This document shows positions 44,355-53,631 of a stretch of DNA of 64,000 bases, one piece after another. Below the pieces are notes generated by a model. The model ran no database searches, was not told where the DNA came from, and saw only the letters and a list, made by a program, of their open reading frames with translations. Origin of the DNA: Henckelia pumila. Lineage: Eukaryota > Streptophyta > Magnoliopsida > Lamiales > Gesneriaceae. The position numbers and the translations under genes were made by a program. Location of the stretch: contig NW_027331840.1 of assembly GCF_033568475.1 (NCBI RefSeq), positions 248,001 through 312,000 of the forward strand, in the 5' to 3' direction. The number at the start of each line of letters is the position of its first letter. The first letter of the stretch is position 1.

Positions 44355-47300
44355 TCAGAAAGAAGAAGCGCAAGCACCGAGCTGCTGACTGCTGGTCAAT
44401 TCAGAACATGGCCATGGGCTAACTTCGACAGCAGCTCCACTCACATCAGAGCACTGCCATGGAAGATTTCTCGAACCCGGGGATCCACGGAGATTTATAT
44501 TCGAAAGACAGATCCCAGTAAATGGTGCATTCTTCAGCCCGTGAATCAAACCGGGTTGCAGAACCTTCTCGCCCCACACGTCCTTGATCGTAATGTCTTT
44601 CAAAGTTGGAAGAGCATTCGGATTATAGTTCTCGTCAGGGTGGTCTCCAACATCGCCCGAGATCTTGATCCCCTTTCGTGCATTCTCTATGTAAATGTTG
44701 GAGAAAGTGATGTTTCGTATAGTTCCTCCTCGGCCTACATTGGTTTTCAAATGGATTCCGACTCCCATATTAAATAGATTTATGTGCTCTGCTAAAACGT
44801 CTTGAACTCCACCGGAGGTTTCACTTCCAACAGCAATTCCGGCAAATGGTGATGAACCAGTTACTCGTCTAATTGTTATACCTTGACTAGGGCGATTATA
44901 AGCGATTCCGTATTCATCCCACCCACTCTTCACTGCCACAAGGTCATCTCCTGTCGATATGTATGAGTCCTCGATGCATACATGGGAGCTCGAGTCTATA
45001 TCAGTAAATAGCCAAAAAAAAAGATAATATAGAATATCAGTCATTTTTCATGTATAATAAATATACCACGAAAGAAATACTCCCCCTCATAAAAAACATT
45101 CCTTGACACAACTTACCTGGATCGATTCCATCAGTGTTGGGAGAGTCTGCAGGAGCCAGGATGGTAACGTATTGAATGACAACATTGCTGACAATAGCAA
45201 AAAAAATGACTTAAACCAGATGCTCTGTTTTACCGTTTCAAGGTTCCAACTTTAAACCGAAATAAAAGGCCAGAAGGGATAACAAAATTACTTGGCACGA
45301 CAATACATAAGCTTTAGGACAACTGTCTCGATATTCTTCAGTGGATTAAAACTAAATCACATACAATCACTAGCGCAGTAAGACAAATACCCATACCTGC
45401 AATACACGGGGTGTATGTTCCAAAAGGGCGAGTTCTTGAAAATAACATTGGAAATTGTTATACTTCTGGAGTTCATCAATTCAACGAGGTTAGGCCTAGT
45501 AAACTGAAGTGTTCTTTGCCTCCACATATTCCACCAGACTTCACCTTGACCGTCAATCGTCCCATTTTCACCTAAAAAAGTAAATAAATGAGCAATGGTT
45601 GAACAAAAACTAAAATGTTCCTTTACAAAATATAAAACAGAAGGGTGACAGCATTTTGTTTATTTAGTCCTTCAGATGATTCCACTCATACTGACCTGTG
45701 ATTATCACATCATGTAGCCCATCGCCATGGATGAAGCTCATATACCTTCCCCCAGGCAGTTCTCTTCCTCTTCCATAAGAAGGCAAGGGATTTATCAACG
45801 GCCATTGATCGGTATCCTAAAGCATTGAGAATGAAAACAAGGTGAGAGATTCACCCCATATGTGTAAGAATAATAAAGGATGAGTAGAAGAAATGATAAC
45901 ATTGGTTTAGACATACAAACACAATAAAGTTCAGAAGTCTCATTATCGTAAACACGCAATCTTATACTAATTTAATATATAACAGACTCAAAGCTATAAC
46001 TAAAAATTTAACAGATGACGGAATCTAGCACACGCATGCAGTATCACCATTGCACATTTAAGACCATGCATTCAATGTATGCGTGAATAGTTAGCAGAAG
46101 CTATGCTAATACGACATCATTGTTTAGATTTTCCAAACGTATGAACAAAAATTTGACCTTTCATAACAAAGGTGACTTATCCATGTTGTCTTACCCAAGG
46201 ACATAGAGAGAAAGTGAGCAGAAACAGTCACATATTTCTATCGCATTTTACCATATCTACGTATAATCCTGTGATAAGCTACACCCAACATAATATGATA
46301 TTTCACTCTCTATACTCATTTTCTAGCTCCTCCAATAATCTTTATACAGTTCAGATATTTACTATTTTTTAAAAAATATATTATCATGTTGTCCACTAGA
46401 TAGCTAGCAGGCCATGATGCATTGATTAAGTAGAAAAAGGAATAAATATAGTGATAATTTGATTGTTCGTCGCCGTAGTAAATAGACGAGAAAATAGAAT
46501 TTCTCTCCAGCATCTCTTCCAAGGTGATGTTCCAATATCTTCATCTTCTTTCTTTTATCACTTAGGAGCCGTGTGAGATGAAAGTCTCATGCACGGTTTT
46601 GAAACTCCCAATTCTCTAGCAAATATAGCCCTTTTCATCATTTCTTCGCATGTACCCGCAGTAGCATTCAAGTAATGCCCTTTGACTTGCTCCTACGGAA
46701 CCAAGGTCGAAAAGATTGAGAAAATCAGTCATTCACAACCACTAATGAAGGATTCCTCGAAAAGTTAAGGAGTCCTACTCATGGTGACTTAGTTGAATTG
46801 GGCGAAGCTGTACTCACTTACGATCAACATCTTGTGAAGTTCTTCTTGAACGAATCTATTTCTATGTAAAAATAGAACATCTTGTGAACGTCTTTGTTAA
46901 GGTGATCAATATTTGACAATAATATGCTCAAGCCAGCTCCTCGGCCCGCACCCCTCCTTTGATGTGCCCCCTAACATCTCATTCAACGCCATTCAATCCC
47001 AAAATCATGTAATAGCCTCTTATACCAACTCAACGTCACTCCATTAAAATCTCATGAATCAACATGCATATTGACCCAGTCAAGTTTTCCATCAGAACTT
47101 TAATCACATCGTCCTTGTATGTTCATTCATGAAAACCAACTCATCTAATAAACTGATCAAAATTATCGACATGTATAACTTAGATTAGATAATTGGAGGA
47201 ACCAGAAACGTGATGCATAGGCAAAACAGAAAATTAAAAATATTTTAAAATAACACCAGGGGAAAACCATTTGCTTCTTTTTTAAAAAAAAAATCTAAAA

Positions 47301-48143
47301 AGAAGGGCGTAATCGGTTCCAGCTTATTTCCCTCTCACTTCACCAGTATCTTACAACTTACCGGCATAACCACTCGCACATCAATTAATTTCACTTTGGC
47401 GTAGCCGCGTAGGAGTATGCAGATTGGTTATGGGATCACAAGTTCAAAATCCTAAGGTACATAACTCTATATAATTCTTAAGCTGGTCTCCCGTGCTTAA
47501 TATCACACATTTGTTGCCTAATGCCCGACCAATTAGTGTGTGAGTGTGTGTGTGTCTTAATATTAACTTCTGGCATATGATTCACATCTTCCACTTGGGG
47601 GCATGTTAGGGCACAGTGTTATTGTTTGAAATCGCAAAGGGAACTTGATGATAGAGAGGCTTTTTCCCACAACAAAATCCTTAACAATCCCAGAAACAAT
47701 TTAACGAAATATTCTTACTTCAAAATTTTAACTATCAAGACGACAGTAACTATTCCAATGAGATTATGAAAAGGAGAACATTTGTATACCGTTGTAGCTT
47801 TGATAACAGCATTTCTAGCCAAGAACAGAGTCATGTGGCTGGTGAGATTAAAGGGTCCTGTTAAAAACTCTCCAGCAGGAACATAAAGTAGAGAGCCACC
47901 CGGCCTCCCCAAATGCTGGATTCGGTAAATTGCCTCCTGAAAAGCTTTCGTGTTCAAAGTCACTCCATCCCCAACAGCACCAAAATCCTCTAGCGATATG
48001 ACATCGCTTCGGTACCTGATTGGTACAATTCCCGAGCATGTAACCCACTCGGCATTGGCAAATCTAGAGCAATTTATCAACAGAGATATAACCCCAAAGG
48101 ACAGCAAAGTCGAAACAGCAAATGCAAACGGGTGCTGCTGCAT
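44355..48143 (-). CDS. Polygalacturonase-like pectinase, GH28
   Basis: Five exons on the minus strand (48143-47790, 45816-45696, 45571-45397, 45187-45117, 44995-44355) give 453 residues. An N-terminal hydrophobic segment ([17 protein letters not shown]) looks like a signal peptide or anchor, so the product should enter the secretory pathway and act in the cell wall. The beta-helix starts with [19 protein letters not shown]28 landmarks: NTDGIDPD near residue 235 and [10 protein letters not shown] near 257 hold three catalytic Asp. The usual GHG is replaced by [13 protein letters not shown], and the RIK site reads [10 protein letters not shown]. Both changes are shared by the clade of Arabidopsis At4g23820 and At5g41870 as I remember it, so they are family traits. 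Substrate activity is not established for that clade. Intron 1 is about 2 kb and holds plastid DNA. Confidence 0.92.
46430..46905. other. Mosaic of plastid DNA fragments (NUPT) in intron 1 of the polygalacturonase gene
   Basis: Several plastid gene pieces lie side by side. 46430-46486 (+) reads [17 protein letters not shown] and stop, the end of rpl2. About 46550-46602 (+) has gagccgtgtgagatgaaagt followed by ctcatgcacggttttgaa, the domain V-VI end of the ndhB group II intron. 46603-46685 (-) reads [20 protein letters not shown] followed by FARELG, rbcL. 46777-46812 (+) reads [12 protein letters not shown], rpoC2. 46814-46904 (+) reads [20 protein letters not shown], matK. The pieces between (46490-46550 and 46686-46776) also look plastid-like but I cannot name them. 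Genes that are far apart in a plastid genome and lie in both orientations cannot come from one collinear piece. Confidence 0.88.
47396..47570. repeat. Possible degenerate tRNA-derived SINE
   Basis: The stretch ggcgtagccgcgtaggag ... ggttatgggatcacaagttc resembles the A and B promoter boxes of plant tRNA-derived SINEs. It is followed by about 100 bases with no homology I know, ending in a (TG)n run. It is far from perfect, and no target duplication is clear. Confidence 0.3.

Positions 48144-53631
<5,488 letters not shown>

Follow-up and report, generated by a model that had tools for sequence, protein, structure and literature searches.

A 475-bp block at positions 46428-46902 of the window, the 64-kb stretch of DNA analysed here, consists of seven plastid pieces of ~38-90 bp each, which succeed one another as in a relay, with sharp ends, in the order rpl2, rps2, ndhB intron, rbcL, ndhB intron, rpoC2 and matK (Table 1). 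The block is very probably a complex (rearranged) NUPT, an unremarkable example of an established class whose pieces here are rather small, and no observation argued against this classification. The explanation best supported is that short plastid fragments were ligated while a break was being repaired. Several plastid fragments lie at one nuclear locus, they are non-collinear and differ in orientation, their surroundings are nuclear (an intron of a glycosyl hydrolase 28, GH28, gene, with flanks present in two contigs), and the readable inner joints are blunt or have short microhomology. An initial annotation of this DNA had described "five or more" plastid scraps at 46430-46905. The five genes that it named (rpl2, ndhB, rbcL, rpoC2 and matK) are all present, as judged from nuclear copies, Rfam, Pfam, PDB and the plastid contig; its count rises to seven, the rps2 piece having been missed and the ndhB intron being represented twice, and its span is refined to ~46428-46902.

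Table 1. Positions, strands and best support of the features at the insertion locus (window coordinates).
Feature	Position	Strand	Remarks
Host gene, glycosyl hydrolase 28 (polygalacturonase-like)	44355..48212	-	Pfam frames
Piece 1, plastid rpl2 3' end	46428..46504	+	stop ~46487; following spacer probable
Piece 2, plastid rps2 5' end, antisense	46505..46542	-	38/38 vs L026 and L027 (nuclear)
Joint rps2/ndhB	46543		one extra base, matched by neither side
Piece 3, ndhB intron 3' part with group II domain V	46544..46603	+	60/60 vs L023 (nuclear, C1)
Joint ndhB/rbcL	46603		overlap 1
Piece 4, rbcL, antisense	46603..46683	-	81/81 vs plastid contig C133
Joint rbcL/ndhB	46683		overlap 1
Piece 5, second ndhB intron piece	46683..46771	+	88/89 vs L023
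Joint ndhB/rpoC2	46769-46771		overlap 3 (GGA)
Piece 6, rpoC2 (14 residues)	46769..46812	+	44/44 vs two copies in L025
Joint rpoC2/matK	46812/46813		overlap 0
Piece 7, matK	46813..46902	+	right end ~46902 by codon comparison

The window corresponds to bases 248001-312000 of contig C86, in a genome of 885 Mb and 133 contigs, of which C1-C4 measure 183-234 Mb. One contig, C133, of 127.5 kb, appears to be a plastid contig: the part that was compared contains an rbcL frame and eight tRNA genes, together with further frames that we take to be atpB, atpE and accD. Direct plastid comparison covered 45 kb of C133, about a third. The rbcL piece was the only one compared directly with C133, and for the other six pieces the references were nuclear plastid copies or entries of Rfam, Pfam and PDB; matches below 26 bits were left out, and the identity count used the best match for each piece. 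The longest exact match between the block and the compared part of C133 was 81 bases. None of 200 single-base shuffles gave more than 18, and none of 132 further 475-bp tiles from the window exceeded 17; the block is therefore not a product of chance. The rest of the window gave no further match to the compared part of C133 at E 1e-3.

Each piece could be assigned to its gene. The first part of the rpl2 piece (46428-46464) is identical over 37 of 37 positions to L024, a nuclear copy of rpl2 located on C3. Translated as a whole, the piece yields the 18 C-terminal residues of chloroplast L2, as found in PDB 5h1s and 5mlc (E 2e-4); positions 46488-46504 probably belong to the same piece, an assignment made by position only. 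The rps2 reference L026 corresponds to chloroplast S2 from end to end (PDB 5mmj, E 7e-134; Pfam PF00318, E 2e-76). The first ndhB intron piece was recognised by two Rfam families, RF04357 (Plastid-ndhA-ndhB-2; E 2.6e-10, 50 bits, gathering threshold 53) and RF00029 (E 9e-8, 45.8 bits, gathering threshold 40), the latter match extending to 46638 within the rbcL piece. We take L023, the reference for both intron pieces, to be ndhB in particular, partly from the start of its exon 2. The rbcL piece translates into 27 residues that match Rubisco large chains in PDB (E 5e-13) and Pfam PF00016 (E 6e-5; 22.9 bits, which does not reach the curated cut-off of 30.1), and the reference frame for rpoC2 (L025) matches the plant RNA polymerase beta'' subunit in PDB 8w9z (E 4e-122). 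In the matK piece, positions 46813-46859 are identical to a nuclear copy, L028 (47/47), and the translation contains 29 contiguous residues corresponding to positions 231-259 of MatK_N (PF01824; E 1e-6, 29.2 bits, cut-off 31.4); a PDB search with this piece gave no match, and Pfam returned no L2 family for the rpl2 piece or for the L024 peptide. The scores below curated cut-offs for matK, rbcL and RF04357, and the lack of a Pfam match for rpl2, are in keeping with the shortness of the scraps. Translation also shows that the rpl2 and matK pieces extend past their nuclear copies. Poorer copies of the pieces exist elsewhere, including matK at 89% in L029 and the second ndhB piece at 97% over 70 bp in L037 and 94% over 51 bp in L031. 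The same matK scrap occurs at L028 (3092-3138) and L029 (2733-2778) with similar flanks at both loci, which indicates that it travelled there within a duplicated nuclear segment or repeat.

The arrangement of the pieces departs from that of their relatives. In L023 and L031 the sequence of the second ndhB piece comes first, followed by 81 bp and then by that of the first piece; in the block this order is swapped and rbcL lies between them, so that two pieces from one 230-bp stretch, on the same strand, flank the rbcL piece. In the nuclear copies L025 and L026, rpoC2 and rps2 run in the same direction, ~3.3 kb apart, and the block has rps2 in antisense and rpoC2 in sense orientation, giving one clear relative inversion. 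Judged from these nuclear copies, the swapped ndhB order and the rps2 inversion make the block neither collinear nor uniformly oriented, and the compared third of C133 gave no collinear plastid match. Joining in both orientations, as originally proposed, is thus borne out most firmly by rps2 and rpoC2. The rbcL piece does lie on the opposite strand, as had also been noted, in its full-length match to C133; on the standard plastome map, rpoC2 and matK have the orientation opposite to that of rbcL, and consequently the rbcL, rpoC2 and matK pieces all derive from the same strand of the plastome. That the rbcL piece (79-81 bp) is nearly as long as the 81-bp ndhB gap in L023 was taken as chance.

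Five of the six joints are readable, and the rpl2/rps2 joint is not resolvable to the base. At the readable joints separate plastid genes abut directly and share 0-3 bases, in agreement with the earlier proposals that unrelated fragments were joined before or during insertion and that the joins have no long homology. When the joint with the extra base was left out, a summed overlap of at least 5 over the remaining four arose in 16-22% of simulated blunt joins. The overlap is therefore within the expectation for blunt joining, and a microhomology-dependent pathway is not needed; microhomology above chance was not found at the four joints, a comparison of low power. Random placement of seven pieces on 127.5 kb gave any pair like that from ndhB in 2.6% of simulations and a pair flanking one piece in 0.6%, figures that serve as a guide only because the pattern was noticed after the fact. 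We regard the paired ndhB pieces, from one stretch and flanking rbcL, as mildly unusual, and random ligation would make such a same-strand pair less likely.

The host gene has open frames that match PF12708 (47715-48212, E 5e-8) and PF00295 (two frames, at 45360-45659 and 44358-45047; best E 6e-22, the other 3e-6), and on sequence grounds is consistent with a polygalacturonase gene whose matched frames are open, as expected from the initial annotation, which had placed the block in an intron of a gene that could be normal. Alignment with a paralogue on C4 (18.38 Mb) places the block within intron 1, ~45826-47786: exon-like blocks align on either side at 75-87%, and the paralogue's own intron 1, of ~620 bp, does not align and lacks the block. 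A partial copy of the gene, made up of exon 1 and part of intron 1, is found at ~223.865 Mb of C4 (L044) and corresponds to window positions 47180-48120; it is 88% identical over 963 columns and begins at 47180, downstream of the block, and the later exons are absent from the 3.7-kb stretch examined. A search of the genome with both flanks found no empty (pre-insertion) site.

The whole block and its flanks are also carried by a second contig, C131. Its identity to C86 is 98.96% across 10 kb; the 10,025 aligned columns contain 34 substitutions, and there are 15 gaps. Two of the substitutions are inside the block, both in the matK piece (46879 and 46881). C86 and C131 may represent a pair of alleles or else a recent duplication, and most simply the insertion is older than the split between them. 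The locus lies on smaller contigs in both cases, and a near-identical match is absent from C1-C4 among the scored candidates; the two contigs may be unplaced haplotigs or a recent duplicate. Among 21 genome matches the whole joined block occurs only at C86 and C131, and hence no ready-made source was seen; searched separately in the genome, the rpl2 part and the matK tail were likewise found only there.

The pieces differ from their references at one of 396 aligned positions, counted with the best match for each piece (391 distinct window bases), and the single difference lies within 46683-46771. This suggests that the insertion is young, a possibility raised at the outset. Assuming a neutral rate of about 7e-9 per site per year, such a divergence would correspond to an age of roughly a few hundred thousand years, a figure with wide error that serves as a sign of youth only: six of the seven references are nuclear, the closest copies were picked, identity defined the edges, and the count excludes the remainders of the rpl2 and matK pieces, which have no DNA reference.

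Short plastid scraps occur elsewhere in the genome. A 7.5-kb plastid query gave 39 nuclear matches, with 40 of 121 candidates scored, and the size survey left out three of 42 rows (the plastid contig and the two block copies). The median size was 144 bp, 11 of the 39 matches were no longer than 100 bp, and one exceeded 1 kb. A clear second patchwork was present at L037 (2867-3058; C3, ~31.735 Mb), where an ndhB intron piece of 79 bp is followed by 17 unassigned bp and three pieces of 31, 38 and 33 bp; the pieces each reach 97-100% identity and the joints of the three share 3 bases (TGT and ATT), one overlap becoming 6 with other scoring. At another of the matched places, C2:31806280-31806382, plastid pieces of 73 and 32 bp adjoin in opposing orientations and overlap by 2 bases, and their plastid source positions are ~3 kb apart.

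In the explanation that we favour, a chromosomal double-strand break would have occurred in intron 1 of the host gene, and seven short plastid fragments would have been joined end to end as filler during its repair, mainly by end joining and presumably in a single event of recent origin. Complex nupts have been classed in nine plant genomes, with inner joints described as blunt or microhomologous (Portugez et al., 2018; PMC6215612), and ligation of plastid fragments during break repair is the published account of them (PMC6215612; PMC7037861). In tobacco, inactivity of individual break-repair pathways is reported to increase plastid-to-nucleus transfer, and the authors' explanation is that breaks, as sites of integration, are then more numerous and persist longer (PMC12181080); this result supports breaks as entry sites and singles out no one joining pathway. 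Copying in place of ligation is unlikely on present evidence, but the ndhB pair and L037 keep it in contention. A polymerase (Pol theta, or another form of template switching) would have hopped between plastid molecules and, once rbcL had been copied, gone back to the ndhB intron, which would fit the small size of the pieces, the simulated rarity of an ndhB pair on one strand around another piece, and the origin of the three L037 pieces from one 2.3-kb plastid region, on the same strand and with 3-base overlaps. Arabidopsis T-DNA shards at induced breaks have also been attributed to Pol theta with other donor molecules (PMC10923293). However, the joint overlaps (1, 1, 3 and 0, plus one extra base) are not beyond chance; the same source assigns 0-1 bp of microhomology to classical end joining, and gives a mean of 2.4 bp for T-DNA left-border joints, which it calls typical of Pol theta (PMC10923293). 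The ndhB pair could be accounted for just as well by both ends of a single broken fragment, or by the reopening of a small circle made up of ndhB and rbcL pieces.

The other alternatives concern where and when the patchwork was put together, and all are very improbable. Plastid pieces are common in plant mitochondrial genomes, and the block could have been built there and moved ready-made to the nucleus; against this, the joined block was found nowhere else among the 21 matches. A COX1 search of the genome gave partial matches only, at 4 places (best 53 of 436 positions), so that the sequences compared seem to include no complete mitochondrial genome, and mitochondrial DNA could lie at the edges of the block. 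Slightly less probable again is a long NUPT that was inserted whole and later broken up by nuclear deletions and inversions. Decay of NUPTs into fragments has been described (PMC3989485), but the pieces come from separate genes and abut directly, and so many rearrangements are unlikely to have left point differences at one of 396 positions. An assembly chimera is the least probable reading of all: near-identical sequence is indeed missing from C1-C4 among the scored candidates, yet C86 and C131 both carry the block and its flanks with substitutions of their own, including the two in the block, and the joints are base-clean.

The block is a clean and probably young case of repair filler derived from organelle DNA, in which joints can be read and two sequence versions exist; by itself it leaves established views unchanged. 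A more speculative thought, which we consider rather doubtful, is that the block and L037 represent a class of "micro-mosaic" NUPTs, formed by repeated template copying at breaks with the end returning to a template already used (ndhB-rbcL-ndhB; L037) and missed by surveys with a 100-bp minimum. Should pieces below 100 bp often form patchworks, NUPT surveys that apply length cut-offs of this kind would underestimate how frequently organelle DNA takes part in repair.

With filler DNA, templated insertions and T-DNA shards, as these are described in PMC10923293, the block shares short pieces from a foreign donor in a repaired break; unlike T-DNA shards, its donor is the plastid, its microhomology is not above chance, and its break and pathway are ones that we infer. 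A numin, a mosaic of mitochondrial and plastid DNA, contains at least one mitochondrial fragment; the pieces recognised in the block, by comparison with plastid and nuclear sequence and with family models, are all plastid. The pieces, all of ~90 bp or less, would go uncounted in one survey of NUPTs that used a 100-bp minimum (PMC3989485). In Moringa oleifera, NUPT clusters are reported from 122 bp upward, and one of two NUPT episodes there has shuffled clusters of up to 11 integrants; those clusters are defined by a spacing of less than 5 kb, whereas the pieces here abut directly (PMC10789010). The closest likeness is to the rearranged or complex NUPTs as characterised in PMC6215612 and PMC7037861, in which non-contiguous plastid fragments lie at one nuclear locus and are connected by blunt or short-microhomology joints.
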